Program-made: the position numbers and the translations under genes | Virus record (IMG/VR): IMGVR_UViG_3300001349_000012 | Coordinates: 25,048 to 68,008 of that record | Strand: one strand, 5' to 3' | Origin: a virus | Length of the DNA: 42,961 nt | In this document: positions 1 through 33,732 of the stretch, piece after piece | Position numbering within the stretch: the first letter of the stretch is position 1 | How the letters are laid out: each line of letters opens with the position of its first letter | Notes under the pieces: generated by a model | Told to the model about the DNA's origin: nothing | Seen by the model: the letters and a program-made list of their open reading frames with translations, nothing else | Database searches by the model: none

Positions 1-317
1 TCGAAAACATTACCGTATCTTTCTGGGTTTACGTAGGCTAACCAAGCGTCGTAGACATTTGTAAGGGAGTCGAATGAATCTTTGCCGCCTTGTCCCTCTA
101 CCCATTCATCAAAAGATAATTTTCCGCCTACTTCGTTAGCTGAAATTGCATCGAGTGAGTTTTGTACTTCTTGACTATCTGTTTTTGGAGTGCCCATTGC
201 ATCTGCAATTGCTCTTAGTTCATCAGCATCAGAAGTGCCGTCCATATCAGCATCTGCCTCTGCGACTATCTCAGCAGCGACTTCATTAATAAGCTTTCTT
301 AATTCTTTTTCATTCAT
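1..317 (-). CDS. Tagged protein with EF-hand-like loop (partial, C-terminus off window)
   Basis: An open frame begins with ATG at 317 and runs off the left edge after 105 codons, so the C-terminus is missing. The start MNEKELRKLINEVAAEI is a short amphipathic helix of the kind repeated on its neighbours and contains an I-N-E tripeptide. At about residues 22-33 the sequence DADMDGTSDADE fits the spacing of an EF-hand or other Asp-rich calcium loop (D-x-D-x-D-G, Glu at position 12), though position 8 is Ser rather than hydrophobic. The gene starts 2 bp after the stop of the upstream gene. I do not recognise the family. A virion-associated, calcium-binding cargo protein is inference. Confidence 0.7.
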   Translation of the reverse strand, partial: MNEKELRKLINEVAAEIVAEADADMDGTSDADELRAIADAMGTPKTDSQEVQNSLDAISANEVGGKLSFDEWVEGQGGKDSFDSLTNVYDAWLAYVNPERYGNVF

Positions 318-318
318 T

Positions 319-711
319 TTATCGTTCCATCTCACGTGCTTGACGATTTTCATTTTGATCAGGGGCTAACATATAAATTTCTTTTGCTGTTTCTAAAGCA
401 TGTAATATATCATTTGACTCTTCACCTTCAAGCATCCTAAGTGGTCGTGAAAGTCTTTCAAAAGCAAGTCTAATAGCACTTGGGTTTGTCTCATATACGG
501 ATTCTTTAAATCCATCACTATTTTCGCCGCTGTTGTAGTAAGCTGAAACTATTGAATCTACTTGCTCTTGTACGGCACCACCTAATGATGAGTAAGCCTT
601 AGCAAATTCTATAAGCTCAGATCCTGTTTCAATATCCATACCATAAGATTCACTTACTCTTATCATTTCTTCTTTGATTAGGTTCTTTAGTTGTGTTTTT
701 GTTATTTTCAC
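319..711 (-). CDS. Small N-terminally tagged protein, unknown function
   Basis: This 130-residue protein starts with GTG at 711; GGAT lies 7 bases upstream as a weak ribosome site. The first 16 residues, MKITKTQLKNLIKEEM, match the tag seen on at least seven other proteins in this block and include an I-K-E tripeptide. The N-terminus of the protein at 4568-4909 is nearly identical. The remainder is acidic and predicted helical, without cysteines, membrane segments or a recognisable domain. The tag suggests shared targeting or processing with its neighbours, which is inference. Confidence 0.85.
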   Translation of the reverse strand: MKITKTQLKNLIKEEMIRVSESYGMDIETGSELIEFAKAYSSLGGAVQEQVDSIVSAYYNSGENSDGFKESVYETNPSAIRLAFERLSRPLRMLEGEESNDILHALETAKEIYMLAPDQNENRQAREMER

Positions 712-789
712 GTTATATCCTGTCTTGAGTTATTTACACGTTAAGTTTAATTCCGCAGATACTATCTTTGCGAATAGTGATAGCTAAAT

Positions 790-1152
790 TCACCGTTGAT
801 CATTCAAAAGTTTTTTGCTCTGATCCTTTAAGTTTATAATTATGCTGCAGTTTGTAGTAATGTTGTCTATTTGTAATTCTTCGACATCATTTTTGCTAAA
901 TTTGCATTTCGATTTATTATTTACTATCAATTGTATAGTGAAATCTTCTTGATCCATTAATGATAATATTGAGTTTATGTTCCCAAAAGCCTTTATACTT
1001 TTTATATTGCTATTTTTATATTGTAATGATTCTATGTCAAATGTATCATTATTAATCTGCAGACGTGTTGTATTTTTTGGATGTTCAATTTGAACTGAGT
1101 CAGCAATGTCATCTGAAAACATCACTGTGTCATTTACACTACCATAGCTCAT
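790..1152 (-). CDS. Hypothetical small protein
   Basis: A 120-residue protein. I chose ATG at 1152 because AGGTGA lies at good spacing upstream; an in-frame GTG at 1161 lacks such a site. The start overlaps the end of the upstream gene by 14 bp, suggesting translational coupling. The protein is rich in Asn, Ile and Asp with alternating hydrophobic residues, suggesting beta structure. It does not carry the amphipathic tag of its neighbours and I do not recognise the family. Confidence 0.7.
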   Translation of the reverse strand: MSYGSVNDTVMFSDDIADSVQIEHPKNTTRLQINNDTFDIESLQYKNSNIKSIKAFGNINSILSLMDQEDFTIQLIVNNKSKCKFSKNDVEELQIDNITTNCSIIINLKDQSKKLLNDQR

Positions 1153-1588
1153 CTGTGTCACCTGACGTTTTATTACTGTGACTGAAAAGTGCGTCTATAT
1201 ACATTTCATCGATGTCTTTCGCATATTCGAAGTCCATGTCGGTAACATCATTTAACTCTTCGGTATAGATCTCAACAGATACATAAGCAGCAACAATGTT
1301 TAATTCTATATGATGTAATGATTGATCAGCAAGATTAAGAGCATCGTTTATAAAAAGCCGTCTGGACATTTGTGATTCTATTTCAAATACTCGTCTTAGT
1401 CTGTTTGGGCTAGTTAAATGTTCCCAGTCAGTTCCTCTTGGGACTATTGGTTGATCAGTGCTTTCATTCAATAGTTTTGTTTTTTGCATCCCACCAATCA
1501 GACGAGAAACAGAATTAGTGCGCCTTGAGTTATTGCTAACTTGTTCTTCGTTTTCTAGTAAAAATTGCTTTAGTGAGTAGTTGTTCAT
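1139..1588 (-). CDS. Hypothetical protein with T4-CTS-like N-terminus
   Basis: This 149-residue protein has ATG at 1588 preceded by AAGAAG. Its first 12 residues, MNNYSLKQFLLE, differ from the Lys-rich tags nearby but resemble the T4 internal-protein capsid-targeting peptide (MKTYQEFIAE) in length, aromatic placement and a closing L-x-E. A region around residues 50-120 is predicted helical and acidic. Stop TAG at 1139-1141 overlaps the next gene. No domain is recognised. A virion-packaged protein is inference from the N-terminus and context. Confidence 0.75.
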   Translation of the reverse strand: MNNYSLKQFLLENEEQVSNNSRRTNSVSRLIGGMQKTKLLNESTDQPIVPRGTDWEHLTSPNRLRRVFEIESQMSRRLFINDALNLADQSLHHIELNIVAAYVSVEIYTEELNDVTDMDFEYAKDIDEMYIDALFSHSNKTSGDTDELW

Positions 1589-1602
1589 ATTATCTTCTTA
1601 TT

Positions 1603-3564
1603 CTACTGTTGCTGTTCTTCGCGCTCTGAATCAAGTGTTGTCTTGACGTCTTTTTCTGCCATCATCTCTTCGATATTATCTCTAATGTCTACTACAGCTC
1701 TATCAAATGCAGAAACTATTGCTCCATCATCTTGAAGTTGCTTATTATAGTATCCTTTAATATCTGTTATGTGATCATCAAAGTATGCTTGAATTTTTTT
1801 ATCCATTTGACCCTGTAGACCTTTAAATTCTTCTATTGTGATTCCAGCTGTAAGGACTTTTTTAGCAGAACTATTTTGAGGTGTTCCATTTTTATCAAAT
1901 GCTGGCTGATTTTTTGAAATTCCTGCCAAGATATCTCCGAGAGCTCTCTTCTTTTTGTCATCAATATTTAGATTTGAAACAGCTTCTAGTCCAAAGTCTC
2001 GCCTATTGTTAAAGAAAGTTCCAAATGTCTTACCTAAGAGTAGCTTGTCAAATGCGCCTCTGACTATCCAACCTGCTGATGTTCCGGTTAGTTTGTCGAA
2101 GTCTATTTCTTCTGACCCAGTTGTTACGTCGTCTATTATAGCTTCAATTCCTGTAATGACTTTTTCAACAGCTTCTGGCTTAATACCCTTTGGTGTTTTC
2201 TTGGCTATTTTCTTTAACCACTTTTCTACACCAGGTGACATTATAAGAGCTTCGAGAGCAGAATATGTTTGATCATACATCTTTTCTCCTGAGACACCTA
2301 CACCACCCTTAACGAGTGTCATAAACTTTTGTTCTGGATGTTTCTGGAACCACTGACGTATTCCATTTGCTCCGGTGAACCCAAATAAGTCTGATTGATT
2401 TTCAAGATTACTTTCAAGTCTCTTTTCAGCTCTGTCTACGTCAAATAGAGTCTCAGCTGCCACGAGGTCTTTCTCTTCTTCAGAGCCAAACTCTTCATCT
2501 GCTACTTCTTTACTCATAGCAGCAGGAGCATTCTTCTTCTTTGCAGCTTCAAGGTGAGATATAAACATCTCAGAAGGAACATCGTATGAACCTTCTAGTC
2601 CACGTAGCTGTAACGTCAGTACTTTAGGTCCGTTTTTAATGTTATTAATCACCTCATCTACTACTTCTTCTATCGTCTGCTCGTCTTCTTCTGTGATTGA
2701 CTTCTTTAATTTATCGTAAGTTGTGTTAGCGTGCATTTCAGAAGCGTCTTCTACTGAGATGTCTGAGACTGCTGACATCTGTTTAGTTAGCTCGCTTATT
2801 ACGTCTAGAGCAGCTATTGACTGATTTATCCCTGTATTTACGTAGTCAGAGAACATTTTTTTGATCTCTTTGTCATTTCTAACGGCTTCAAAAAATACTT
2901 CGTTTGCTAATTCTGAAGGGATTGTTGCTTTTCTTGTTTTGTATCCAAAGCTTGCGAAGTTTGCACTAGCGTCCTTTACATCACCTACATTTAAGTTCAT
3001 ATTGTCTTGTTTGTCGTGAATAGCATCTTTTGAAGTGTGACCATTGACAATAATTGCTCGAGCGATAGACTTAGATGTGATTTCTTCAACAACTGGATCT
3101 TTGTCAACATATAATTCAACGTCGTCGATTCCCTCTTCCTCGTCTTCCCAGCCTTCTTTTTCTCCGGCAAATGAGTCAATGCTATCTTCTATACCATCAA
3201 TGGCTTCAAATAGAATTGCCTCCATCATGGGTATACGAGCTTCTTCTTCTCTGTCCATAACTCTTTTTAATAAGTTGTGAAGCTGATTATAGAAGAATTC
3301 AACTTGACTGCTTGGAACTTCTTGAGCTATTGTTGCAGCAGCATCTGAAAGTGCAGAAGTCGTTGTCGGCATATACGCATCGTCAGCGACATTTGGCATT
3401 TCTGATGATAGCTGTAGTGGCATATGTTCGTTTGGTAGAACTGGAAGCTCAGGACCCGCTATTTGATCTATTCTTGTGCTGTGTGCTGTTCTTGAATTGT
3501 TGTGTTCATTTACGAATTTTTTTATTAGTTGTTCAAAAACGCTTTTTTCTATTTTGACGCCCAT
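1603..3564 (-). CDS. Large acidic protein, probable virion or cargo protein
   Basis: A 653-residue protein. I chose ATG at 3564 rather than an in-frame ATG at 3594 because AAGGGA lies about 7 bases upstream and it begins just after the preceding stop, whereas the longer start overlaps that gene. The N-terminus MGVKIEKSVFEQLIKKF is a divergent relative of the block's tag. The protein is acidic and mostly helical, with a strongly acidic patch near residues 130-150 (EGWEDEEEGIDD) and no cysteines. Residues near 395-520 contain globular segments. No family is recognised. Size, acidity and neighbours suggest a virion-internal protein. Confidence 0.8.
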   Translation of the reverse strand: MGVKIEKSVFEQLIKKFVNEHNNSRTAHSTRIDQIAGPELPVLPNEHMPLQLSSEMPNVADDAYMPTTTSALSDAAATIAQEVPSSQVEFFYNQLHNLLKRVMDREEEARIPMMEAILFEAIDGIEDSIDSFAGEKEGWEDEEEGIDDVELYVDKDPVVEEITSKSIARAIIVNGHTSKDAIHDKQDNMNLNVGDVKDASANFASFGYKTRKATIPSELANEVFFEAVRNDKEIKKMFSDYVNTGINQSIAALDVISELTKQMSAVSDISVEDASEMHANTTYDKLKKSITEEDEQTIEEVVDEVINNIKNGPKVLTLQLRGLEGSYDVPSEMFISHLEAAKKKNAPAAMSKEVADEEFGSEEEKDLVAAETLFDVDRAEKRLESNLENQSDLFGFTGANGIRQWFQKHPEQKFMTLVKGGVGVSGEKMYDQTYSALEALIMSPGVEKWLKKIAKKTPKGIKPEAVEKVITGIEAIIDDVTTGSEEIDFDKLTGTSAGWIVRGAFDKLLLGKTFGTFFNNRRDFGLEAVSNLNIDDKKKRALGDILAGISKNQPAFDKNGTPQNSSAKKVLTAGITIEEFKGLQGQMDKKIQAYFDDHITDIKGYYNKQLQDDGAIVSAFDRAVVDIRDNIEEMMAEKDVKTTLDSEREEQQQ

Positions 3565-3565
3565 T

Positions 3566-3802
3566 TTAGTTTCCCTTGTATGCTTTAACTGCATCGATTA
3601 CTGCTTGTGTTGAAATGTATACTACTGCAATCATTCCCCAGACATCTGATGATAGATCTGCTTTCCATGTTAGACCAGTTGCTGTGATAAAAACTAATAG
3701 CTTTCTTGATATTAATCTGCTTAAAATAATATCTATCAGACTTAATTTGTTTTTATTTTGTGAGAACTCTATAAGTTTTTCACCAATTTTTTCTGAATCC
3801 AT
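3566..3802 (-). CDS. Small membrane protein, holin candidate
   Basis: A 78-residue protein with a charged N-terminus and two hydrophobic stretches: about residues 33-44 (RKLLVFITATGL) and 55-70 (VWGMIAVVYISTQAVI), joined by a short polar loop. The tail is AVKAYKGN. This hairpin layout is common among small phage holins, which open the inner membrane for the endolysin. The endolysin here is about 17 kb away (20654-21583), so there is no lysis cassette to support the call. A structural or unrelated membrane role is possible. Confidence 0.65.
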   Translation of the reverse strand: MDSEKIGEKLIEFSQNKNKLSLIDIILSRLISRKLLVFITATGLTWKADLSSDVWGMIAVVYISTQAVIDAVKAYKGN

Positions 3803-3848
3803 TTGTAACCTTAGTAAACGATAATAAGTGTATCTTTATTAAATATTA

Positions 3849-4181
3849 TCAATTTATTAAATCATCATCATTTTGTTCAGAATTAAATGACATTAACAGT
3901 TTTTTAAGGTAATCATCTTCTTCTGGTATTGTTGCTTTCACTCTATTTTGAGTAATTTGACTAGATGATAGTAGATCAAAATAGGCAATAGATAGACTTC
4001 CAAGGTCGGCTTTTATGTATTCATTTTCACGTTCTATAGTTATTATTCTTGCTTCAAGATTAATCATTTTTAATGTCAGAGTATTAGCAACTTCTGCCAT
4101 AGAGTTTAGTTCTTCTTTTAGAAGACTCTCTTTTATTATGTTTTTTAGCGTTTTTAATTTCTGTTTCATTGTGTTAATCAT
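3849..4181 (-). CDS. Small coiled-coil protein with tag-like N-terminus
   Basis: This 110-residue protein starts at ATG 4181, overlapping the upstream stop by 8 bp. An in-frame ATG at 4169 would give MKQKLKTLKNIIKESLLKEE directly, which resembles the shared tag and contains I-K-E and L-K-E. Neither start has a strong ribosome site. Residues about 30-75 have a heptad-like pattern (TLTLKMINLEARIITIERE) that suggests a coiled coil. No enzymatic motif is visible. Confidence 0.65.
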   Translation of the reverse strand: MINTMKQKLKTLKNIIKESLLKEELNSMAEVANTLTLKMINLEARIITIERENEYIKADLGSLSIAYFDLLSSSQITQNRVKATIPEEDDYLKKLLMSFNSEQNDDDLIN

Positions 4182-4461
4182 TTGAAAATGGGCTTTCGTC
4201 GTTTATCATTTCGTATATGCTTTCAACATCGATGCTTTTAAGCTTTTTGACTATTCTTTGTTTTTTGTCTGATTTTAATTCTGCAAGAAATGCAATAGAT
4301 TCAGGTTCTTCACTTGCGATACGAACAACAAACTCTTCAAACACTTCTTGCATTGACAAACCATGCTTAAAACATTGAATACGAAATCCAGCATGTGAAG
4401 ATGCATTAATCCCTATATGAACTGTTTTTCTTCCATGAATATCACTAAGTAGCTTTGACAT
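4174..4461 (-). CDS. Ribbon-helix-helix-like small protein
   Basis: A 95-residue protein. Residues about 10-50 (KTVHIGINASSHAGF then a helix-turn-helix with GLSMQEVFEEFV) resemble the strand-helix-helix layout of ribbon-helix-helix DNA-binding proteins. Residues 60-95 are charged and helical. It is the first gene downstream of a strong terminator, so it probably starts a new transcript and could be regulatory. The family assignment rests on pattern only. A non-DNA-binding phage protein is the alternative. Confidence 0.6.
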   Translation of the reverse strand: MSKLLSDIHGRKTVHIGINASSHAGFRIQCFKHGLSMQEVFEEFVVRIASEEPESIAFLAELKSDKKQRIVKKLKSIDVESIYEMINDESPFSND

Positions 4462-4500
4462 ACGTTTATTATATAACGCTTTTTAAAAAAATATAGGTAT
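4462..4500 (-). promoter_or_regulatory. Candidate promoter, -10 element only
   Basis: A perfect TATAAT (minus strand, 4468-4473) lies 6 bases before the ATG at 4461, in a very AT-rich segment downstream of the terminator at 4509-4536. There is no good -35 at 17 bp. A promoter is expected because the terminator should stop upstream transcription. If real, the transcript would be nearly leaderless. Confidence 0.35.
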
Positions 4501-4508
4501 AGAAAAAG

Positions 4509-4536
4509 AAAACGCCTGAAAGTTTTCAAGCGTTTT
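4509..4536 (-). terminator. Rho-independent terminator after the 4568-4909 gene
   Basis: The minus strand reads AAAACGCTTGAA, a 4-base loop, then TTCAGGCGTTTT: a 12-bp stem with one G-U pair, followed by CTTTTTCTA. The plus strand also carries T-rich sequence after the stem, so it may work both ways. It lies 31 bp past the stop of the gene at 4568. Confidence 0.85.
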
Positions 4537-4567
4537 TTCAATTTATTTTTTATTTTATTAGTCTACT

Positions 4568-4909
4568 TTAGCTTCTCATGTGAGGGTGTGGATCTTGTTC
4601 GATGGCTTGAGCCATTTTTATTCTAAGTTCTTCTAGCTTGAATATGGCTTTATTAATCTCATTCTGAAGCTCATCTGAAAGTTGCAAGGTGTCGACGCTT
4701 GACGCCGTTAAACCAGCAGCATAATTCATATCATCATTAAATGCACCGAGTCTTTTAACAATCGGCGCGAAATGAGCGTATAACTCATACTCAGTCATTG
4801 GCTCTTTACGGGACTCTCCTGTCTCGCCTTGCCATACGGGTATACCCTCTTGTGTTATCTCAAGCTCTTCTTTGATGATCTGCTTAAGTTGTGTTTTTGT
4901 GATTTTCAT
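4568..4909 (-). CDS. Small N-terminally tagged protein, unknown function
   Basis: A 113-residue protein opening with MKITKTQLKQIIKEEL, the clearest version of the block's tag, with I-K-E at residues 12-14. The start ATG overlaps the upstream TGA (ATGA arrangement). The rest is soluble, helical and ends in PHPHMRS. The DNA around the start closely resembles that around the internal ATG at 5283, indicating recent copying of the tag sequence. A terminator follows the gene. Function is unknown. Confidence 0.85.
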   Translation of the reverse strand: MKITKTQLKQIIKEELEITQEGIPVWQGETGESRKEPMTEYELYAHFAPIVKRLGAFNDDMNYAAGLTASSVDTLQLSDELQNEINKAIFKLEELRIKMAQAIEQDPHPHMRS

Positions 4910-5592
4910 TTTTGATTTCTTGCAGCTTTTTGATTCCTTAAAGTTTTAAGAATGTGCTGTCCTATTCTAGCCTCTCTACCTTTGCCATGTTTTTCATCAA
5001 ATGACATAGCTCTATACGCTTTAACGTGGGCGTTGGTAAGAAATTCAGAAAGATCTTCAGGAGATAGTTCCATGAGCTCTCCAATGGCAGAAACTAAATC
5101 GCTCTTTAACATCTCGAAATCTTTAATAAACTCGTTGATGACTATATCTCTCATCATGTCAGGACCGCCTCCTCCAAAAGCCTCAGGTGGAAAGCTATTT
5201 ATAGTGTTATCTTCAGAGGAATTCTGATATTGATACATACTCTCTCTGATGATTTGTCTTAGTTGTCTTTTTGTGATTTTCATTTTTGATTCCTTAACTG
5301 TGGTTTTTTCGTGAACAAAGCCAAGCTCTGTTAGTTCTATATGTCTATTATAAGTATCTGCTAATGTTGATTTACCCGTTTTTGGGTCATTCATCATGTG
5401 TGGTGTGAAACTTTCGCTTTCTGGAAGATGCGTGTCAGAGACTTCATTTTTGGCGGATATAATGGCCTTTTGAAGAGCGTCAGGGAGATCACTTTGTTGT
5501 TTGCCTTTTAGTTTTCGACTGTTGTCGTACTTTTTAGTAAATGCTGCATCTTCTCTAATCATCTGTTTTAATTTTGATCTAGTTAGTTTCAT
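4906..5592 (-). CDS. Double-tagged protein, apparent fusion of two tag proteins
   Basis: A 228-residue protein starting MKLTRSKLKQMIREDA. At residue 104 a second complete tag occurs, MKITKRQLRQIIRESM, with its own ATG at 5281-5283 and an AAGGAA ribosome site 6 bases before it. The frame therefore looks like two tag-bearing genes joined by loss of a stop, and the downstream 125-residue part may also be made alone. The second part contains FGGGGPDMM and an acidic helical region. The C-terminus has the repeat NQKAARNQK. No enzyme motif is recognised. Confidence 0.8.
   Translation of the reverse strand: MKLTRSKLKQMIREDAAFTKKYDNSRKLKGKQQSDLPDALQKAIISAKNEVSDTHLPESESFTPHMMNDPKTGKSTLADTYNRHIELTELGFVHEKTTVKESKMKITKRQLRQIIRESMYQYQNSSEDNTINSFPPEAFGGGGPDMMRDIVINEFIKDFEMLKSDLVSAIGELMELSPEDLSEFLTNAHVKAYRAMSFDEKHGKGREARIGQHILKTLRNQKAARNQK
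5281..5295 (-). promoter_or_regulatory. Internal ribosome site and ATG inside the 4906-5592 gene
   Basis: On the minus strand AAGGAA (5290-5295) is followed by TCAAAA and ATG (5281-5283), in frame with the larger gene. The codons that follow encode a full copy of the tag. This is better placed than many true starts in the window, so a shorter second product is plausible. Confidence 0.55.
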
Positions 5593-5595
5593 GGT

Positions 5596-7221
5596 TTATA
5601 TTCCTACTATTCTCATCCATCTTTCTTGAAGACTATTTTGTTGTTTAATATGTGCTATGTATATTGGGTTTTCTGAAACTAGCCGTCTAACGTATGGAAA
5701 TTCATCACTTGAAAGTTTTACTAAGGCTTCGAGTGGTGTGAATGGATTTTCTGCTAATGCAGCTCTTGTACGTTGGTTCTTGTCACTTGAAAGTTTTACT
5801 AAGGCTTCGAGTGGTGTGTATGGATTTTTTGCTATTCTTGCTCGTGTGTATGCATCTTTATCGTTTGAAAGCTTTACTAAGACTTCGGGTGGTGTGAGAG
5901 CTTTACTAGCTACTTCCCATCTAATCAATTTAATCTCGTCGCTTGAAAGCTTTACTAAGATTTCAGGTGTTATGTTAGTATTTGTTACTACTGCCCACCT
6001 AACTTGTTCAACCTTGTCGCCTGAAAGTTTCTCTAAGGCTTCGGGTATAGTTGAAGGATTTTTTGCTACTGAAACTCTAATGTATTGTGATCTGTCATTT
6101 GAAAGTTTTAATAATGCTTCGGGTGTAGTTGAAGGATTTTCTGCCACAGCACCTCTAACTGCGTCAGACTCATCATCTGTAAGCTTTGTCAAGACTTCAC
6201 TCGGTGTGGAAGAGTTGCCTGCTACTTCCCATCTGACTCTGCTAGACTTATCATTTGAAAGCGCTACTAAGACTTCAGTCGGTGTGGAAAGATTACTTGC
6301 TACTTCACGTCTTACACGTGCATCATCGTCACTTGAGAGCTTTATTAATACTTCTGTGTCTGGTTCGTCGCTTAAAGCCTGTTTAACGAACTGATCTTTT
6401 GCATCACCTTCCAGACCTTGAATGTATGAGCTTATCTCATCTGGGTCTTTAGACTTTGAAATTGTCTTCATTTGTGTTTTAGCAGGATGTTCGCCACCAA
6501 TTAAATCAGTGTTTGCCTTCATAACATTCATAATAGGTTCAAACTGATCACCTAAAATCTGTGAAAGTCGGTCCGATGTGAGTCCCTTGTTGTTAGCATC
6601 AACTGACAGCCCTCCGGATCTACCATCAATCACAGGCTGTCCTTCCATAAATCCAACAGAAAGCTTTGCAGTTGGATCTTTTCTTGAGTCAACACCTTTT
6701 TTTATAATGTAATATAGAACTATATTTTTATTGTTAAAGACAGTATAAGAAAGAAAAAGGTTCTGTGATTGCGTTGCAGCTGTGCACCATGTTGTGCCTT
6801 TTCCTAATTGACAAGAGCTTTCACGGGTATGTGGCATTGCAACAACCCAATCGCCGAAAGTGCCAAGATAAGTTGTCTCCTCATCTTTCAGGCGTCGAGA
6901 TTCAACTCCTTTTGAGCTACCAAGATCCTCAAGTGCCTGACGAAGAACGCCAGGCGTCTTATAGGAGTAAATGTCAGTAGACATACCTTTTGACTTTAGA
7001 CGCGACTTTGCTGTATCAAATGCCTGAACAACTCCAACAATATCATCAACAGGTTCGTCACCTCTTCGCTTCTGAATCCACTGAAGATATTGTGGGTTTT
7101 TGACATCAGCATCATAGGCGGGCTGTAGCTCTGGAAACTTAAGAACCAGCTTTTCAGCTTGACCTTCAGAAAGCAAGCTCTCTCTAATGATCTGTTTTAG
7201 TTTTGAACGAGTGAGTTTCAT
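5596..7221 (-). CDS. Tagged protein with WCT-motif domain and 26-residue HEAT/LRV-type repeats
   Basis: A 541-residue protein. I chose ATG at 7221, immediately after the previous stop, because it places the tag MKLTRSKLKQIIRESLLSE at the N-terminus; an in-frame upstream ATG at 7332 would lie inside the previous gene. Residues about 22-250 form a globular domain with GKGTTWCTAA followed by FLSYTVF and LYYI strands. Trp-Cys-Thr motifs of this kind occur in uncharacterised phage proteins, but I cannot assign activity. Residues about 292-519 hold eight full and one partial 26-residue repeats of the form LVKLSSDxxxxVRxxVAxNPxTPxEA. These resemble leucine-rich-variant or HEAT repeats, which form superhelical binding surfaces. 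Confidence 0.88.
   Translation of the reverse strand: MKLTRSKLKQIIRESLLSEGQAEKLVLKFPELQPAYDADVKNPQYLQWIQKRRGDEPVDDIVGVVQAFDTAKSRLKSKGMSTDIYSYKTPGVLRQALEDLGSSKGVESRRLKDEETTYLGTFGDWVVAMPHTRESSCQLGKGTTWCTAATQSQNLFLSYTVFNNKNIVLYYIIKKGVDSRKDPTAKLSVGFMEGQPVIDGRSGGLSVDANNKGLTSDRLSQILGDQFEPIMNVMKANTDLIGGEHPAKTQMKTISKSKDPDEISSYIQGLEGDAKDQFVKQALSDEPDTEVLIKLSSDDDARVRREVASNLSTPTEVLVALSNDKSSRVRWEVAGNSSTPSEVLTKLTDDESDAVRGAVAENPSTTPEALLKLSNDRSQYIRVSVAKNPSTIPEALEKLSGDKVEQVRWAVVTNTNITPEILVKLSSDEIKLIRWEVASKALTPPEVLVKLSNDKDAYTRARIAKNPYTPLEALVKLSSDKNQRTRAALAENPFTPLEALVKLSSDEFPYVRRLVSENPIYIAHIKQQNSLQERWMRIVGI
5665..6348 (-). repeat. Tandem 78-bp coding repeats
   Basis: The C-terminal part of the 5596-7221 gene consists of 78-bp units encoding 26-residue repeats. 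The copies at 5705-5740 and 5783-5818 share a 36-base identical core, whereas others have diverged, indicating recent duplication at the 3' end of the gene. Unit length is constant, so the reading frame is kept. Confidence 0.9.
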
Positions 7222-7222
7222 A

Positions 7223-7879
7223 TTATGCGCCGCCGCCGCCGAGCCCTCCGCCGGCTGCGCCGCCTGTTCCACTTCCTGCTGATGGCAGTACTTCTGGGTC
7301 GTTATCGAATCTTGTGTTGAAGTCAAAGTCAAAGTTATTACTTAAGATCTCTTGTGCTTTTTCAACATGACTATCTGTGTAGTTGTCTTCAAGAAACTTA
7401 AGTGCCCTGTTTACGATTGCACTCTCTAGATCTAAAAGATGTTCTGGTCTAGTTGCAAGACGAGCAACTCTTTGTGTGAACTGATCTATGTCAATTAGTG
7501 GCATAGGGTCATCTACAGGTTCGTCTACTTCGACGTCTTCACCGTCGACCATATTGTCGCCGTCAGTATCAGCGCTGTCTTCTTCTTCAGAGGGGGCTTC
7601 ACCGACATCATCAGGAGGAGCATCACCAAGATCTTCAGCACCATCTTCAAAAAGCACTGAAAGTGAGCTTGTGTTTAGCGCCTCGTTTATTTCTTCTACT
7701 TCGTCTTCTAGTTCTGGTTCGTCTCTTAAAGAAATCATCTCATAGTTGAGTAGAAAACTATCTATTTGATCATCTACAGATACTTTAGATAGTCTTGTTG
7801 CAGTTCCTATAGCCGGGGAAGCTGGCTCTTCGAGCTCTTCTTTGATAAGTCTTATTAAGACGTCTTTAGATAAATTCAT
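7223..7879 (-). CDS. Tagged acidic protein with Gly-rich tail
   Basis: A 218-residue protein beginning MNLSKDVLIRLIKEELEE, a variant of the block's tag with I-K-E. Residues about 80-130 are extremely acidic and low in complexity (runs of Asp, Glu and Pro). Residues about 135-190 look globular and helical. The protein ends GTGGAAGGGLGGGGA, probably disordered. The stop is 1 bp before the next start. Such acidic, disordered proteins are common as DNA mimics or packaged internal proteins; neither role is shown here. Confidence 0.82.
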   Translation of the reverse strand: MNLSKDVLIRLIKEELEEPASPAIGTATRLSKVSVDDQIDSFLLNYEMISLRDEPELEDEVEEINEALNTSSLSVLFEDGAEDLGDAPPDDVGEAPSEEEDSADTDGDNMVDGEDVEVDEPVDDPMPLIDIDQFTQRVARLATRPEHLLDLESAIVNRALKFLEDNYTDSHVEKAQEILSNNFDFDFNTRFDNDPEVLPSAGSGTGGAAGGGLGGGGA

Positions 7880-7882
7880 TTT

Positions 7883-8584
7883 TTATTGTCCTAATTCGGC
7901 TTGTTGTGGGTTCATCATGCTGTCGACTTTTGCTAGACGAGCCTCAATGACTTCCCAGTTGAGTTCTTTCATCATAGCGACTACGTAAGTTCTAACATCA
8001 CCAAGATAGTCTCTGTAGTATGCGTGTTGGTGTGTGTCCATTACTATAACAGGTATGAATCCCATTGGGACGTTAGTTGCATTTCCTTCCACGGCTATGT
8101 TCATGTATGAGTTAAGGAACATATTGTATCCTAATACCGCCCAGCCAGACTTTGTAGCTGAAGTGCATGCTATAAAGTCTTTTTGCCAGGCATCAAATGA
8201 TCCGAAGTCTCTTTCTATTCTCATAAAAGAAAGTGAGTTCATTGAGATCTCAGAGTGTATATCACCGACATTAGCAAAGAAAAGTTCATGAAGCCAGACT
8301 GAATTTAGTGAGTCTACTTCGTTCTCTTTTGTCATCTTAAAAACTGAATGTAGTGGGTTTGAGGTTGAACGCTCTAAAGTGTCTAGTTCAGCTGAAGCTC
8401 TGTTGAATACATCTACATACCCTTGGTATATGCCAAAGTGATTTTCTTTGTTTTTAGCAGAAAGCATGTCAGTGTTTAATTTGTATGACTTTTTGCTTGC
8501 AACAAATGATTCATCTAATCTTTGAGCTTTTTTTGTAATCCCTAATGAATCACTTATGATTTTTTTTATTTTATTGTTTTTCAT
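7883..8584 (-). CDS. Fe/Mn superoxide dismutase homologue with N-terminal extension
   Basis: A 233-residue protein related to Fe/Mn superoxide dismutases, which convert superoxide to oxygen and peroxide. The four metal ligands can be placed: His49 (ENHFGIYQGYV), His99 (VWLHELFF), Asp183 and His187 (MDTHQHAYYRDY). FGSFDAWQKDF and SGWAVL are also typical. The gateway Tyr is kept (Tyr56), but the second-shell His after the first ligand is missing, and the usual DxWEH is DTHQH, so metal choice and activity are uncertain. Residues 1-30 precede the dismutase fold and begin MKNNKIKKIISDSLGI, a weak form of the tag on neighbouring proteins. It sits within the tagged-protein block and overlaps the upstream stop by 1 bp. 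Confidence 0.85.
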   Translation of the reverse strand: MKNNKIKKIISDSLGITKKAQRLDESFVASKKSYKLNTDMLSAKNKENHFGIYQGYVDVFNRASAELDTLERSTSNPLHSVFKMTKENEVDSLNSVWLHELFFANVGDIHSEISMNSLSFMRIERDFGSFDAWQKDFIACTSATKSGWAVLGYNMFLNSYMNIAVEGNATNVPMGFIPVIVMDTHQHAYYRDYLGDVRTYVVAMMKELNWEVIEARLAKVDSMMNPQQAELGQ

Positions 8585-8952
8585 TATAGTCCCATCGCCT
8601 CTTTTACAAGAGTTCTTAATTTAGTAAGTGATTCATAGACTTCTTTACTATTACTATCTTTATCACCATGTATCTGTTCATCATCGTCGCTGGAGGCGTC
8701 TTTTGGAAGAATATAATTTTTCTGAAATTCTTCTTTCGTTACGTCGAAAGGTTCTCCTCCCATTGCAGATAGTAGTGTTACGACATCATCACCTGAGCCC
8801 TGGATTGTGAATTTCTCTCTTGTTTCACTGTTCATTACTGTTAACATGTCAGTCAGTTTTTCTAAATCATCGAGCTCGCTTATAGTGTTTTCAACTATAT
8901 TTAAAGTCTCGTTTTTGATAATTTCCATAATGTTGTCTGAACTTAAACGCAT
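8584..8952 (-). CDS. Small acidic protein with tag-like N-terminus
   Basis: A 122-residue protein starting MRLSSDNIMEIIKNETL, which has the spacing and hydrophobic pattern of the tag but lacks the I-x-E tripeptide. The rest is acidic, with a low-complexity stretch near residues 86-100 (DASSDDDEQIHGDKD) and a helical end. GTGGGA precedes the ATG. It directly precedes the dismutase gene, with TAATG coupling. Function is unknown. Confidence 0.75.
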   Translation of the reverse strand: MRLSSDNIMEIIKNETLNIVENTISELDDLEKLTDMLTVMNSETREKFTIQGSGDDVVTLLSAMGGEPFDVTKEEFQKNYILPKDASSDDDEQIHGDKDSNSKEVYESLTKLRTLVKEAMGL

Positions 8953-11182: not shown

Positions 11183-11742
11183 TATCTTCCCTTTTCAATA
11201 AATTTATTATGCTTAAAACATCTTGGCTCGTAGAGCTCAGAGCCACCGACTTCTATTTCACTGCTTGAACTTGTTTTCTTAATTGTGTAGTAGGCATCTT
11301 TTTCGCATTTAGTGCACACTGCAGGGCATTTCTCAATTCTTGTTGCCCATCTATACATTTTTTCCATTTCTTCGAACGGTTGTAAAGTTGCAGACATGTC
11401 TAGCGAAGATATTAATATTGTCTTTCCTTTTCTATACTGACCTATTAAAACATCAGCAGCTCCAGGGATCATAAATGCCTCGTCTACGGCTATTACAGCA
11501 TGCATCTCCTGTATATATTCTATCATGCTATTACCGTCTTTTACACAAATTGCCTTCACTTTTGCACCTAAGTGTGTAGTAATGTGGTGCTTGTTGTATC
11601 GAGAATCAATATCTGGCTTAAATGTTATGAATTTTTTCTTTTGATAAGACAGTCGATCAAGCCTTGTCAAAAGACGCGATGTCTTAGAGCCAAACATTGG
11701 TCCACAGTATATTATGAAGCTTGGGTTATTTTTTTCTTTCAT
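11182..11742 (-). CDS. tdk: Thymidine kinase (type II)
   Basis: A 186-residue thymidine kinase, which phosphorylates thymidine to dTMP. The P-loop is GPMFGSKT near the N-terminus, the Walker B-like region is AVDEAFMI, and a zinc lasso is formed by CPAVCTKC and a later Cys (PRCFKH). The length matches the family. It overlaps IMP dehydrogenase by 4 bp and the DHH gene by 1 bp, so it is part of the same operon. Its role is thymidine salvage during DNA replication. Confidence 0.94.
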
Positions 11743-12776
11743 ACAGTTGAGCCCAAGATATGTGGTTTTCCGTCATTTAGACCAGACATAGTTCGAATTC
11801 CCCATTTCGCCTTTATATTTATGTCGCAGATGTTAAACGCATTACAGTATGACATTCCGCTCTTCAGACCTTTTGTCAAGTCATTAACGATATCTATTGC
11901 TGATCCTTTCGCTGATACTAGTGTTTTAACACCTTCTGCAGTAGGAGTGAACAACTTGTTTTTATCGGGCCTGTTCGACATTGCCGCTGAAGATGCCATT
12001 CCTCTGTATTCTTTTACTTTTCCTGCACTTGTCTCAATAAACTTGCCAGGTGTTTCATCTGTTCCACTCAAAAGTGAACCAATCATTACAAGGTCGGCAC
12101 CAGCAGTAAGTGCCTTCACGATATCACCAGATGTCTTTATACCACCATCTGCAATGATATGAGTACCACATTGATCAGCAGCGTATGAACAATCTAGAAC
12201 AGCAGTAAACTGAGGAACTCCGTGCCCTGTGACGATATTTGTGCTGCATGCGCTTCCATTTGATATTCCAACTTTGATGCTGTCTGCTCCCCAGTCGTTT
12301 AGATCAAAAACAGCTTGTGGAGTTGCAACATTTCCAGCTATAACAAATGTATCGGTATAGTTTGTTTTAATCCACTTAAGCATTTTTTTCATCATCTCTG
12401 AGTGACCGTGGGCTATGTCAACTACAAAATGGCGAGCGCCTGAAGAATATAGTGAGTCAAATCTTAATTTGCTATGATCATTTACACCTACGGAAACGAA
12501 ACAATCTGCGCCGCTTACTCTTACTATATTATAGTCCTCTAAGTTTTCATTAATTGACATGAATCTATGAAGAGCTCCAACACCACCTGATTTAAACATA
12601 GAGATGGCCATTTCTGTACCAGTGATTGTATCCATGTTTGCAGACATTATTGGTGTTCTTAGATGAAAATCGCCTAATTGAGTTGTTGTGTCTACTGATG
12701 ATCTTGAACTTATCTCTGAGTATTGTGGTATCAAGTATACGTCATCGTAAGAGTAGCTGTATGTATTTCTGTTCAT
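11739..12776 (-). CDS. guaB: IMP dehydrogenase lacking CBS domains
   Basis: A 345-residue member of the IMPDH/GMP reductase family. The catalytic Cys is Cys177 in [13 protein letters not shown]. The phosphate-binding segments [15 protein letters not shown] and [14 protein letters not shown] and the later RGMASSAAM and GLKSGMSY resemble IMP dehydrogenase more than GMP reductase. IMP dehydrogenase oxidises IMP to XMP, the committed step to guanine nucleotides. The two CBS domains that normally interrupt the barrel are absent, with a direct join near residues 75-90. Such a form may escape CBS-mediated nucleotide control. GMP reductase, which also lacks CBS domains, is the alternative. Confidence 0.88.
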
Positions 12777-19817: not shown

Positions 19818-20564
19818 TCAGACTAATAGTCCCATGTCTCTGAGATAGTCTATTATTTGTTTGTTCACTGGGACATCTTTCCCATTTACTCTTTTGTGAG
19901 TGCTTGGGAGAGCCTTTATAGGTTTGTCCAGATGAAGGTTTTTAATTGTTCCAGTTTGATAAGTTTCATCGTAATAAGAGCCACCAGTTGGGTCTCTTTT
20001 TTCAGTAAGAATTATCTGTATTACGTGACGTAAGAATGTTTCCGTTATAGCAGTATTGCCGATGTCTTTGGAGGTTTTTTCGTTTTTTATATTCTCTTTA
20101 ATACTGGTGTTTTTTTCTTGCCAATCGGCAGAAATTTTATCTTCAGTAATAGGACCGCCAGCAGCCCACGTATAACACGTTCTATCACTGTGACATTTAA
20201 AACTATGCATCCAACAATAACCTAAAGTCTCCCAAGGCTTGTTGTTTTCAATTGCAATTTCTATTTCCTCTTGCTTCATAATTGATCCTGGCATACAGTC
20301 TTGCATGTTAGGAGATATATCAAATGCAACGCAATTATAACATTTAGACTCTTTAGCGACTTCAGGCTCAGTGTTCCAGTGTTCAGCAGCTCTTTCCCAA
20401 TATTCTTCATCGGTTAGATTTAGTGGTCCATACTGAATATAGTCTGCCTTAATAGCGGCATTTCTATTTTTAGTATTTAATTCTAGATCTTGTGTCGGTT
20501 CTGGGCAAATTAGCTTTTTTGCCTCATTTTTAAGCTTTCTCAAATTTTCAAGTACAAGTTTCAT
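19818..20564 (-). CDS. Cys-rich, possibly iron-sulfur protein with internal tag-like motif
   Basis: A 248-residue protein. A central Cys-rich domain contains C75xxC78 (KCYNCVAFD), Cys90, Cys117, Cys124 and Cys130 (GYCWMHSFKCHSDRTCYTW, then AAGGPIT). The spacing and the Gly-Tyr-Cys and Thr-Trp context are reminiscent of high-potential iron-sulfur proteins and related phage domains. Metal or cluster binding is inference. At residues 173-188 ITETFLRHVIQIILTE resembles the tag at the N-termini of the 1-8952 block, here internal and ending in L-T-E. The C-terminus is a small basic region. AAAGG lies 11 bases before the ATG. Confidence 0.7.
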   Translation of the reverse strand: MKLVLENLRKLKNEAKKLICPEPTQDLELNTKNRNAAIKADYIQYGPLNLTDEEYWERAAEHWNTEPEVAKESKCYNCVAFDISPNMQDCMPGSIMKQEEIEIAIENNKPWETLGYCWMHSFKCHSDRTCYTWAAGGPITEDKISADWQEKNTSIKENIKNEKTSKDIGNTAITETFLRHVIQIILTEKRDPTGGSYYDETYQTGTIKNLHLDKPIKALPSTHKRVNGKDVPVNKQIIDYLRDMGLLV

Positions 20565-29860: not shown

Positions 29861-31237
29861 TCAATCTGGAAAAGATACCTTTTGCATTTTTTTATTAAAT
29901 TCTTCTTGATTTGCAGGGGAAGCCATCGGTCCGGCGTATCCACCGATAGATCCGACGCCACTTGCTTCTTCTACTTCGTCGGCATATTCAGCCTCGACAA
30001 GGTCTTCATCGATTAGTTCTTCAGACTCTAATAGAATTTGTGATATTAAGCTTCTTATTTTTGATTCAGATATGTCTGTCTCATCATGTAATTCTTCGAA
30101 GCCATAAACAGATGAGTCTATATCATCTATACTTACTGGTATACTGATTAGTCTTTTTAATTTATTTGCTTTTCGTATCAATGCTAATTTTTCAGTAGAT
30201 GACATTTTTTCATACCCATCATCAGACATTTTATATAGTTCATCAAAGTTACTAACAATATCTGACAAGGTTCCAGCAACTTTTACTGAGTCTATTATAG
30301 AACCCCAGAATGGAGTTTCTTCATCAAACTTTTCATCTAATTCGAATATTGCAGATCGTAAAGCGACATTCCCAGCTAATCTGAGTGTCAATTCTTTCCC
30401 CATCTTTGTTTTAGCCCCTGGGACTCTAGAAGCCTGTTTCAACAAGGGATCTAAAGTCTTTTTTATTTTTGCAGCCCACGATGTCAATGTTGCGATATAA
30501 CCTGCGACATCTCCACCCGCAGGAATTATTGAAACAAAAGCTTCTATGACGTCAGATAAATCAGTAACAATATTGTCAATAACATCATCTATTTCATTAA
30601 GATATGACCCTCCTAATCTCTTGTATGAACCTTGTTCATTATATAGACTTATTAATTCTTTTCCAGCCTCTGAATTATTCTGCAATTCTTTTATATTTTT
30701 TAAAACGAATAAAAAATCAGCGGCTCCAGGAATAACTGTGCCAACAAACTGGCGGGCAGTGTCGCCAGCCATATCGACAACGGTATCAAATGCATCGTCG
30801 ACTACATGACCCAAGAAGCCTCTGCTTGTGTTCCCGTCTGATCTCTCACTGACAGTGTTAAGATTTAAAAACTCATTGAACTTTTCGTTTTCTTCTATAA
30901 GTTGATCAATATCTGTTGTTAGTTTTCTTTCTGGCATTGGTTTACGTCCTCTAAGATCAATTGATATTTTTGATCTTAATTTCATATTATATGTATCTTC
31001 TTCGGGTTCTTCTTCGTTTTCAGGGAACCTTACTTGCCACGCATATTTGTCGTCATCACGACCTTTGTTTACACGTCCTAATTTAGAAGAGAACCCACTA
31101 TCAGCAGATTGTGAGTGACCACCTGATGAACCTGTTAAGTTCCAGGGTCTGCGTGCTTGTCCGAGGTTATTGGATGAGTCACCTGGTGAGACCCCGCCTA
31201 CAGAAGGAAGTCCTCTTTCATTTAGTTTCTTAGTCAT
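29861..31237 (-). CDS. Probable virion protein, paralogue A with shared N-terminal module
   Basis: A 458-residue protein. I chose ATG at 31237 because it begins the conserved N-terminus (MTKKLNERGLPSVGGV) shared with the gene at 31417; an in-frame ATG at 31333 lies in non-homologous sequence. The shared module also includes GHSQSADSGFSSKLGR and GRKPMPERKLTTDIDQLIEE. An insert of about 40 residues, flanked by Gly-Arg, is present here and absent in the paralogue. The central part has hydrophobic Gly/Ala/Pro segments (VGTVIPGAADFLFVL, IPAGGDVAGYIATL) that may contact membranes. Near the C-terminus SESKIRSLISQILLES resembles the block tag, followed by an acidic end with GSIGGYAGPMA. Role unknown; an ejected virion protein is inferred. 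Confidence 0.82.
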   Translation of the reverse strand: MTKKLNERGLPSVGGVSPGDSSNNLGQARRPWNLTGSSGGHSQSADSGFSSKLGRVNKGRDDDKYAWQVRFPENEEEPEEDTYNMKLRSKISIDLRGRKPMPERKLTTDIDQLIEENEKFNEFLNLNTVSERSDGNTSRGFLGHVVDDAFDTVVDMAGDTARQFVGTVIPGAADFLFVLKNIKELQNNSEAGKELISLYNEQGSYKRLGGSYLNEIDDVIDNIVTDLSDVIEAFVSIIPAGGDVAGYIATLTSWAAKIKKTLDPLLKQASRVPGAKTKMGKELTLRLAGNVALRSAIFELDEKFDEETPFWGSIIDSVKVAGTLSDIVSNFDELYKMSDDGYEKMSSTEKLALIRKANKLKRLISIPVSIDDIDSSVYGFEELHDETDISESKIRSLISQILLESEELIDEDLVEAEYADEVEEASGVGSIGGYAGPMASPANQEEFNKKMQKVSFPD

Positions 31238-31276
31238 ACATATAAATATTACGAGTAGCGCTCTTTTTCTTGTTTT
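31235..31276 (-). repeat. 42-bp direct repeat, copy 1 (matches 33730-33771)
   Basis: These 42 bases are identical to 33730-33771. In copy 2 the segment is the end of the HD-hydrolase gene plus the start of the 771-residue gene. Here it precedes the paralogous gene but no HD gene is present, so it is a relic of the duplication that made the paralogue pair. Confidence 0.92.
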
Positions 31277-31416
31277 ATTACATGTTTGTGTGCCCACATG
31301 AACTTGCAAAACGAGTTGGTGGTTTAATATCAAATATGCTCACTATACTCCTAAAATAGAACTTTATGATTATTATAAAACACGAGGCTTAAGTTTACAC
31401 TATAGTGCTATTAGTA
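31238..31416. other. Intergenic region between the two paralogues
   Basis: This 179-bp gap has no gene. Its right half carries a TATAAT on the minus strand without a convincing -35 and the 10-bp palindrome CACTATAGTG (31398-31407). Its left end contains a relic of the end of the HD-hydrolase gene (see the direct repeat at 31235-31276). Confidence 0.6.
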
Positions 31417-33732
31417 TTATTTGATTTTTTCTAAATTATCGGCGAATCGAGATACCCAATCCTTCAATGTAAAGTCTTTCGCGCTGCTGCTGGAAGATGT
31501 TTGTAGTACTATGTCAGCGTTCTGGCGTAGGTCTATCGAACCCTTTGTTCCTGCAGGTGAGCCAGGGACCGGTGGCAGTCGTAATGATGAAATCATCGAT
31601 CTTGCTTCTTTTATAAAGTTATTAATTTCTGTAAAATCTGGCATTAACTTTCTTAAGTCAATCATCTCACCGTCTAATAAGACACGAGCTGGAATTTCTG
31701 AACTGTCTTCGAGAGTTTTGCTTAATTTTTTCATGTCATTTATTAAAACAGGTGATTGAGGTGTGGCCCGCGAACTCAATTGATTGACAATATTGTCAAG
31801 CTTTATAAGTACATCTTTACTAGGTGGTAAACCAGACTTTAGAGTCTTTTTTAAATTTGAAACAATTTCGAGAGCAGAGCTAAAATCTATTTTTTTGAGT
31901 TCTTTCACTGGATCTGGTAAGTTGCCCCATTTGGATCCGCCATGATAAGATTTTATTTTCCAATTACCTAAAATTGCTTCTGCGGTATAGTTACGTGCTC
32001 GAAAAGACTTTTCATCAACGACTAATTCGGACACGTCTTTCGGTAAAAAAGGTTTCTTTCTTGTGCCGCTCTGTGCGTAGTGCTTCTTTGTCTGAGCTGA
32101 TGCTGTTCCTGTAAGTTCAGTTGCAGCGTCAGAGGGAGAGAAGTAAGTTAACCTACCCTCGAGGACATAAAAATTCTTGCCCTTCAGTACGCCGCTGCTA
32201 ACTGCATCAGCAAAGTCATCTTTGTGAATTCCAAAAGTAGATATTTCGTTAGATGCTCTAGTTGTAGCACCCGGGTTTGTCGAAAGCCAGTCTAAAAAAC
32301 TAAAATTTGACACGCTTTTTCTTGAAGTTCCTCGGCCAGCGCGATAGGCACCTACAACGTGAACGTACACTACATCTTCCGTGAAGAATTTTTTAGCTGC
32401 AGGATTTCCGTATACTGTCCTCTGAAATTTTGTTTTTGCCTCTCTCCTGGCTTTTTCACCCGCTGAATCTGCTAATCTTCTTGCATATGAAAGATTTGTT
32501 ATAGCGCTGGAGTCCCATCCTTTTGTCATCTCTTGAAGCTCTAGTTCTGCAAGAACCGAATCATAAAGTCTCTTTAAGGGATTTGCTAGGTTTTCAAATC
32601 GCCTTGTCGCTTCTGAAACTGAACTAGCGCAACCAGCTAGCCCTTTCTGCTCTGTCAGTGCACACAACCCAAAAAGGTCCTGATCTTGAGCGAATTTTTT
32701 CATCTGCTTTTCAAGATATTCAAGTGTGCCGTCAAGCTGTTTTCTTAGCGCGCCGAAGACTTTCTCTGATATTTCAGCGTCTATTGATTTTAGATAATTT
32801 ACTAAAGCCTCTGCGGCCTTTTCTATCGCTTCATCTGAGACTTCTCTTCCAATTGCAGTAGCACCTTTTTTAATAATACCTTTTCCTACAATCTTTGCTG
32901 CACCTGCAACTAACCCTAAAACAGGCGCTGAACAAAGCACGCAAAGGGCGCCTAATAAATAGTCGGGTGGATCTTTGATTACAGCAAGGACAGCAGAAGC
33001 TAAATCTACAGGCGTTCCAACACCAGGTACCATACCAATATAAGATCCTACTTCGATAGCCCAATCAGCTATGCTTGGTTCGCCGTAGTCTACTTTAGTA
33101 ATGTTTAGCGTGACATCTTTTGCGCTGTCACGAACGTAGACAGGGACAACATTTCCATCTCTAAGATTTTTTAAGTTAAAATTTTGATCATCGCCGGCGT
33201 TTGTAAGTAAAACGCTATCTTTGTCTGGAAGCTGAAATGATCCTGAAGTAGATATATCTTGTGGTTTTAAATCTGTCTTTGTGATTAAAACAACTGGGTT
33301 TCCTTTTTTAAGAAAACCTAGTGCCACATATTCTTTTCCCTTCCAAGTAATTGTTTCAAGATTACTTTGTTCAGATGAGAGGTATTTTTGTGGATCGTTC
33401 ATGATGTCTGACACTAGAAGCTTAATTGTCAAGCTCGAGGCGGTCTGCTCTTTTAAGATTTCTTTTAAAATAGTCTCTCTAATAACAGACCTTAACTGTG
33501 ATTCAGATGTGTCTGCACTACCTGGACTTTTAATGACAGAGTTAAGACTTAAAAATTCATTAAACCTTTCATTGTCTTCTATAAGTTGATCAATATCTGT
33601 TGTCAGTTTTCTTTCTGGCATTGGTTTGCGTCCTAGTTTAGAAGAGAACCCACTAACAGCAGATTGTGAGTGACCGTTCAATAAGACTCCGCCTACAGAC
33701 GGAAGTCCTCTTTTGTTTAGTTGCTTAGACAT
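31417..33732 (-). CDS. Large virion-like protein, paralogue B with pretoxin-like hydrophobic region
   Basis: A 771-residue protein whose N-terminal ~60 residues match paralogue A (KLNERGLPSVGGV-type start, GHSQSAVSGFSSKLGR, ERKLTTDIDQLIEDNERFNE). At about residues 77-95 SESQLRSVIRETILKEIL resembles the block tag, with I-R-E and L-K-E. Residues about 225-290 are hydrophobic and Gly/Pro-rich (GMVPGVGTPVDLASAVLAV), reminiscent of the pretoxin segment of polymorphic toxins. Residues about 440-600 form a mixed domain with VVYVHVVGAYRAG and AEAILGNWKIKSYHG. The C-terminus is helical. A membrane-active or ejected protein is inferred; no catalytic site is assigned. Confidence 0.82.
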   Translation of the reverse strand: MSKQLNKRGLPSVGGVLLNGHSQSAVSGFSSKLGRKPMPERKLTTDIDQLIEDNERFNEFLSLNSVIKSPGSADTSESQLRSVIRETILKEILKEQTASSLTIKLLVSDIMNDPQKYLSSEQSNLETITWKGKEYVALGFLKKGNPVVLITKTDLKPQDISTSGSFQLPDKDSVLLTNAGDDQNFNLKNLRDGNVVPVYVRDSAKDVTLNITKVDYGEPSIADWAIEVGSYIGMVPGVGTPVDLASAVLAVIKDPPDYLLGALCVLCSAPVLGLVAGAAKIVGKGIIKKGATAIGREVSDEAIEKAAEALVNYLKSIDAEISEKVFGALRKQLDGTLEYLEKQMKKFAQDQDLFGLCALTEQKGLAGCASSVSEATRRFENLANPLKRLYDSVLAELELQEMTKGWDSSAITNLSYARRLADSAGEKARREAKTKFQRTVYGNPAAKKFFTEDVVYVHVVGAYRAGRGTSRKSVSNFSFLDWLSTNPGATTRASNEISTFGIHKDDFADAVSSGVLKGKNFYVLEGRLTYFSPSDAATELTGTASAQTKKHYAQSGTRKKPFLPKDVSELVVDEKSFRARNYTAEAILGNWKIKSYHGGSKWGNLPDPVKELKKIDFSSALEIVSNLKKTLKSGLPPSKDVLIKLDNIVNQLSSRATPQSPVLINDMKKLSKTLEDSSEIPARVLLDGEMIDLRKLMPDFTEINNFIKEARSMISSLRLPPVPGSPAGTKGSIDLRQNADIVLQTSSSSSAKDFTLKDWVSRFADNLEKIK

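Follow-up and report, generated by a model that had tools for sequence, protein, structure and literature searches.

Why should unrelated proteins encoded in one block of a viral genome begin with the same short peptide? The question is raised by a stretch of 42,961 nucleotides, hereafter the window, which corresponds to bases 25048-68008 of IMG/VR record IMGVR_UViG_3300001349_000012 (G000; 68,008 bases in total) and in which an initial annotation had noted a recurring N-terminal peptide of the form MKITKxQLKxIIKEEL, here called the leader or tag. Our analysis makes it highly probable that this leader is a capsid-targeting propeptide removed by the prohead protease, the protein bodies behind it being packaged and then delivered. 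As judged by sequence comparison, the leader is a module of ~14-25 residues that resembles the N-terminus of a head-locus protein (protein A, see below) and ends at a hydrophobic-x-E motif. Given this likeness to the start of a protein encoded near the protease, and an end in that protease's motif, we regard the leader as most likely a removable label by which dozens of proteins are loaded into the head. An earlier description of this leader system was not found in the literature, our coverage of which was incomplete.

Recurrence and boundary of the leader

The leader positions named in the initial annotation are true 5′ ends of minus-strand open reading frames (ORFs) or in-frame starts. A hidden Markov model (HMM) of the tag, built solely from other viruses, gave, across four genomes, 28 matches of at least 6 bits where residue-shuffled ORFs gave 1, and 26 of at least 8 bits where they gave none, so that the recurrence on a block of proteins is confirmed far above the level of shuffled sequence. 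The clear class comprises the leaders at 711, 4909, 5592, 5283 and 7221, which score 14-39 bits with this independent profile; a broadened one, trained with these very tags too, gives them 23-39 bits. The leaders at 317, 1588, 3564, 4181, 7879, 8584 and 8952 are by-eye resemblances, individually non-significant, and each contains a hydrophobic-x-E site.

Beyond the window, a degenerate DNA pattern covering the first 15 residues of the leader was found in at least 120 stretches of IMG/VR, and in only 5 stretches, on 3 contigs, of the bacterial and archaeal genomes (257 Gb). Profile matches likewise extend across IMG/VR records: when E values up to 1 per genome were accepted, ~3 to ~41 tagged ORFs were obtained per genome (41 in a record of 284 kb, 30 in a relative of the window's virus that is 242 kb long, and 24-27 in others). 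The median distance from tag to stop is ~114 residues. A tblastn search with the leader against a phage collection matched solely an uncultured 484-kb record, and a comparison of 110 long tagged proteins with Pfam and PHROGs returned almost nothing, apart from one L,D-transpeptidase. The 220 strict tags correspond to 192 distinct 45-base versions with mixed synonymous codons, which indicates that the leader is selected at the protein level.

These figures bear on the possibility that the recurrence is an artefact, produced either by a DNA repeat or by chance low-complexity, Lys-rich N-termini in an AT-rich genome. The consensus is indeed rich in Lys and Ile, as AT-rich codons would favour, but the excess over shuffled sequence (26 against 0), the 192 DNA versions and the mere five stretches in 257 Gb refute this explanation for the class I tags; chance could still account for single weak leaders (3564, 8952), and for the recurrence as a whole we give it hardly any credence. 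One of the three bacterial or archaeal contigs carrying the pattern, 101,404 bases long, is equal in length to an IMG/VR virus record in our set.

Where the leader ends was assessed with 180 tagged proteins that share residues 1-16 and are mutually unrelated over residues 17-60, in agreement with the earlier proposal, also borne out by the leader swaps described below, that the leader is a module placed on unrelated bodies. Residues from 16 onward provide a fair test, because the selecting pattern spans residues 1-15 only. Conservation persists to residue 22 and is down to background by residue 23-24. In ~57% of the proteins residue 21 or 22 is the Glu that closes a hydrophobic-x-E motif, where composition would predict 2.2% at each position, and [LIVMF]xE ends within residues 20-24 in 107 of the 180, against 26 ± 4.6 in shuffles. 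The motif corresponds to the cleavage rule of the T4 protease gp21, L/I-x-E (PMC9026906). L-[RK]-E also stands where the propeptide of the relatives' capsid protein probably ends (ENQAAQ[LV]L[RK]E). The I/L-x-E site noted initially near residues 12-14 does exist, but it is not the sole candidate, and the likeliest cut is usually at a second hydrophobic-x-E around residue 19-25.

The same boundary emerges from homologous proteins that carry different leaders. The LRV protein of the window (5599-7221, minus strand) begins at an in-frame Met, residue 38 of its ORF, with the class I leader MKLTRSKLKQIIRESLLSE (7165..7221; 23-27 bits), after which a G opens the body, directly as GQAEKLVLKFPELQPAYD. 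The body (5626..7164), in which a conserved GTTWCTA domain precedes LRV/HEAT repeats, is homologous to EST35_0205 of phage PA5oct; the protein ends in ERWMRIVGI (5599..5625), a variant of the scaffold motif RWxxLAGI considered below. It has homologues that share 79-81% of its first 100 body residues but only 1/4 to 6/13 of its leader: these homologues start with MNIQHTIKEELRLFLE or MSLKTIILQEINLYLE, immediately followed by GKAEDLVxKFPELQPAYD, and the body junction of the window's protein is their swap point (LLSE|GQAEKL vs LFLE|GKAEDL vs LYLE|GKAEDL). A further swap joins AVLE or ALSE to ATDPHDQ, the body being 89% identical and the other leader reading FIDPRYFMDEK..., and in yet another a class I leader (IIKEEI) is exchanged for an ENWRKHLVE leader. 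Because leaders are exchanged there between homologous bodies, the module boundary lies exactly at L-x-E. In one relative (L394) two such modules stand in tandem and a leader is internal; the two-tag ORF 4906-5592 of the window becomes intelligible in this light.

PA5oct is a cultured phage, and in its record EST35_0205 is annotated as 'structural protein, ESI-MS/MS'. EST35_0205 and the SCTP-2 family are homologous to the GTTWCTA/LRV protein, but their leaders differ from the class I tag (MKLFEVFTLYE in the case of EST35_0205), which was undetected in the PA5oct and SCTP-2 genomes. The predicted structure of the GTTWCTA domain is of low confidence, with many residues under 50, and a fold search with this model matched only HEAT/LRV-type repeat proteins. 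In Salicola phage SCTP-2 (L392, 25982-38125) a different leader, MKVKHI..LFES or a shortened form of it, recurs on five or more neighbouring hypothetical proteins, one of them a GTTWCTA-domain homologue.

Head genes and the termini they share with tagged proteins

Another record, G032 (46 kb), overlaps the right end of G000, matching it at 99.6% across 27.6 kb. It adds ~18 kb upstream, where there are tail genes, the gene of a gp23-like capsid protein (G032:858-2717) and the part encoding the C-terminus of the scaffold, which was recognised by gene order and its C-terminal motif. The capsid protein is 77% identical to that of the relative L434, a PF07068 (gp23) protein (4e-77), and 74% identical to that of L435; by virtue of the former identity and of the scaffold, the virus of the window has a T4-like head, with a gp23-family capsid protein and a core scaffold. 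The gene order in relatives is terminase, portal, a protein of ~285 residues, S77 protease, small proteins, scaffold and gp23-type capsid protein.

Located at the S77 protease, or within a few genes of it, is protein A (~130-170 residues), whose N-terminus, MKMTRxxLKxIVKECLVEILSEG, matches the cargo leader in profile-profile comparison (hhalign 95.5%, E 1.6e-8). In the 38 capsid loci of relatives, the protease signature is found in 37, the scaffold C-terminus RWxxLAGI in all 38 and protein A in 32, the last figure being descriptive and not a test, because the regular expression used for counting overlaps the leader pattern. The C-terminus NWAxLAF is conserved in 30 of the 32 copies, identifying protein A as one family.

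The scaffold motif is also found on tagged proteins. Among the 1007 genes of seven records, RWxxLAGI-like C-termini occur on 6 scaffolds and 4 other proteins, namely the window's LRV protein and three proteins of relatives, and all four are tagged (P ~5e-7), with the proviso that the window's ERWMRIVGI was caught by an expression widened after it had been seen, the original LAG form giving three proteins. In the cultured relatives immuto and RM378, the motif is present on the scaffold alone. Flavobacterium phage immuto, in which head genes are annotated, has ORFs beginning with tag-like leaders at 81525, 111184 and 113188.

The initial annotation had named a gp21-like protease as the enzyme that such a system needs. 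An S77 protease (PF03420) is encoded by the nearest relatives L434 (1786-2388; 1.4e-24) and L435, with E near 1e-24 and above the curated cut-off, and by 8 of 9 relatives of at least 76 kb; it was not found in the window's record or in the 46-kb G032, both of which are incomplete and end before its expected place, G032 starting inside the scaffold gene, a few kb short of it.

Along with the provisos on the two counts above, this missing protease weighs against a capsid-targeting propeptide, and so do several further observations. The C-terminal motif is carried by few tagged proteins, and its association with class I tags in contig fragments is non-significant (p 0.12-0.14). Co-occurrence with an S77 protease was rejected as a stand-alone argument, as one is also present in 5 of 8 random viral contigs of at least 70 kb; what counts are the links by position and by sequence. 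That tagged genes lie close to head genes is true in G003, G008 and G010, but had to be abandoned as a general rule since it fails in the window's clade. Some leaders (4909, 5592) have just one I-x-E, at residue 14, and AlphaFold gives a low-confidence helix running through the junction of leader and body. Finally, we know of no proteomics for any phage with this exact leader.

Could the leader then be an uncut docking helix for a partner other than the capsid (host RNA polymerase, the replisome, a membrane or a phage compartment), on proteins that act during infection only? Its residue spacing is that of an amphipathic helix, several tagged blocks of the window's clade lie amid nucleotide-metabolism genes and not head genes, and the tagged proteins include numerous small orphans of the kind usual among host take-over genes. 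A docking helix leaves unexplained, however, both the sharp hydrophobic-x-E end with swaps exactly there and the leader of protein A, the scaffold-like C-motif and the virion annotation in PA5oct, and we find it improbable. More weight, while still unlikely, attaches to the idea that the tagged proteins are structural or core assembly proteins of the head, targeted and cut, but kept in the virion or degraded and not delivered. By gene position protein A and the scaffold, which have N- and C-terminal motifs in common with the tagged proteins, are core proteins, and gp21 largely destroys the core proteins of T4 (PMC9026906); on the other hand, the large and variable number of tagged proteins per genome (~3 to 41), their unrelated bodies and the presence of superoxide dismutase, pterin dehydratase and Zeta-type kinase domains suggest accessory cargo. 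The capsid-targeting and processing role initially proposed for the tag has thus gained support from the end motif, the swaps, protein A's leader, the C-motif and the PA5oct annotation, and from these we infer cleavage, virion location and delivery of the tagged proteins.

Three side observations concern the head loci. In L142 (G028) and L229 (G036), both relatives, the S77 protease gene is interrupted at the conserved GE[LC]DH motif by an insertion resembling an intein; the ORFs have 579 and 556 residues, and the insertion ends in TGN|S/C. In Microcystis phage Mel-JY01 (L416), an RpsU (ribosomal protein S21) gene comes two genes after that of the annotated prohead protease and before that of the scaffold. 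Right behind the capsid gene, at G032:2775-4247 and L434:9022-10326, is an ORF (MICEICNYES...) whose cysteines recall a zinc finger and which may encode a homing endonuclease.

A possible route into the head and its precedents

If the leader is a removable capsid-targeting label, its amphipathic helix would allow unrelated proteins to co-assemble with the prohead core of scaffold and protein A, and it would target this core by copying protein A's N-terminus. The S77 (gp21-type) protease would then cleave after [LIVMF]-x-E as the head matures, and the released bodies would stay in the DNA-filled head and reach the next host alongside the genome. The scaffold-like C-terminal RWxxLAGI may provide some proteins with a second address, perhaps through binding to the inner shell, and with internal tags one ORF may give several mature proteins. 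Combined, these elements would make a general two-address system, in which interchangeable N-leaders (MKITKxQLKxIIKEEL.., ENWRxFLxE, FIDPRYFMDEK..) copy a core protein, an optional RWxxLAGI copies the scaffold, internal tags make polyproteins and dozens of proteins are delivered per virion; this joint reading is tentative, if quite conceivable.

The closest precedent is that of the T4 internal proteins, diverse defence proteins with only a capsid-targeting sequence (CTS) in common (PMC3012670). T4 CTS propeptides have 10-19 residues, end in L/I-x-E and have affinity for the core (PMC9026906). IPI, IPII and IPIII of T4, processed by gp21 (S77), resemble the tagged proteins in having a short N-terminal leader with an L/I-x-E end on unrelated bodies, and the gp21-family protease and gp23-family capsid protein of T4 have counterparts in the relatives studied here. 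They differ in that our leader is a Lys-rich helix of ~22 residues instead of ~10, that up to ~41 ORFs are tagged instead of a handful, and that the leader is common to a protease-adjacent protein, occurs as internal tags and is joined on some proteins by a scaffold-like C-motif; likeness to the T4 CTS sequence itself is confined to the variant at 1588, judged by eye. The leader system would work like the CTS system and, relative to the T4 precedent, is a variant of it at much larger scale, full membership not being claimed. T4 Alt, a head-packaged enzyme processed at both ends (PMC9026906), parallels the proteins with both N-leader and C-motif, but its ADP-ribosyltransferase domain was not found here and our C-motif resembles the scaffold's C-terminus. 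In phiKZ and SPN3US the N-terminal propeptides of many head proteins are similarly cut C-terminal to Glu, those of SPN3US including propeptides of 20 and 24 residues (PMC10052503); in contrast to our case, the phiKZ motif is S/A-x-E (PMC9026906) and most of these propeptides are long and protein-specific, with no shared leader.

Should this interpretation be true, the leader together with the L-x-E rule would pick out, in large uncultivated phages, hundreds of proteins carried as virion cargo, mostly otherwise unannotated orphans that probably include anti-defence and host take-over proteins. The internal-protein trick of T4 would then be a widespread means of delivery, its addresses modular and open to exchange, and the leaders would be ready-made tags to load foreign proteins into phage heads.

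Leaders and related stretches along the window

All remaining leaders of the window are on the minus strand. Nearest to its left edge, a weak-class leader, MNEKELRKLINEVAAEIVAE, then ADAD (258..317), starts an acidic protein that runs past the edge and has, by eye, a VAE|A site. It is followed by a 130-residue orphan with the GTG start MKITKTQLKNLIKEEM and the class I leader MKITKTQLKNLIKEEMIRVSE, then SYG (649..711; HMM 26-28 bits; VSE at residue 21). The T4-CTS-like leader MNNYSLKQFLLE, then N (1553..1588), stands on ORF 1139-1588, which has a pterin-4a-carbinolamine dehydratase domain (PF01329 4.7e-11). By eye, MGVKIEKSVFEQLIKKFVNE, then H (3505..3564), is a weak leader at in-frame Met 11 of a 663-residue orphan (1603-3594), and MINTMKQKLKTLKNIIKESLLKE (4113..4181; 7.8 bits) begins a 110-residue coiled-coil-like protein. 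The highest score, 39 bits, belongs to the class I leader MKITKTQLKQIIKEEL (4862..4909) of a 113-residue orphan. In the two-tag ORF 4906-5592, the first class I tag is MKLTRSKLKQMIRE, then D (5551..5592; 14-24 bits), and the internal one, at residue 104 of this two-module protein, is MKITKRQLRQIIRE, then S (5242..5283; 32-34 bits).

Farther right, an acidic 218-residue protein has the by-eye leader MNLSKDVLIRLIKEELEE, then P (7826..7879); ORF 7883-8584, with a Fe/Mn superoxide dismutase C-terminal domain (PF02777 3.5e-18), starts with MKNNKIKKIISDSLGITKKAQRLDE, then S (8510..8584); and a 122-residue orphan has the weak leader MRLSSDNIMEIIKNETLNIVENTISE, then L (8875..8952), again by eye. The tagged block runs on beyond the window, for example with L003:7857-8144 and the Zeta-type kinase L003:7127-7855, leader MQLLREYIQILLLE; with this kinase, the tagged proteins of known domain in this virus are the superoxide dismutase-domain and pterin dehydratase-domain proteins.

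Motifs had also been reported inside the proteins at 19818, 29861 and 31417, and they were located as ITETFLRHVIQIILTE, then K (20001..20048; residue 173 of 248, by eye), a C-terminal stretch ISESKIRSLISQILLESEE (30017..30073; residue 421 of 490, by eye) and an internal stretch TSESQLRSVIRETILKEILKE (33448..33510; residue 75 of 771). The last two lie in neighbouring large orphans (29861-31333 and 31417-33732) that have a common N-terminal module (GRKPMPERKLTTDIDQLIE..NEFL.LN), the tag-like stretch being C-terminal in one and internal in the other. Judged by eye, other proteins encoded by the same virus resemble GroEL, glutamine synthetase, a GlmS-type aminotransferase and an IMP dehydrogenase-type enzyme (L002:10260-11864; window 14328-15401, 17130-18956, 11739-12776).

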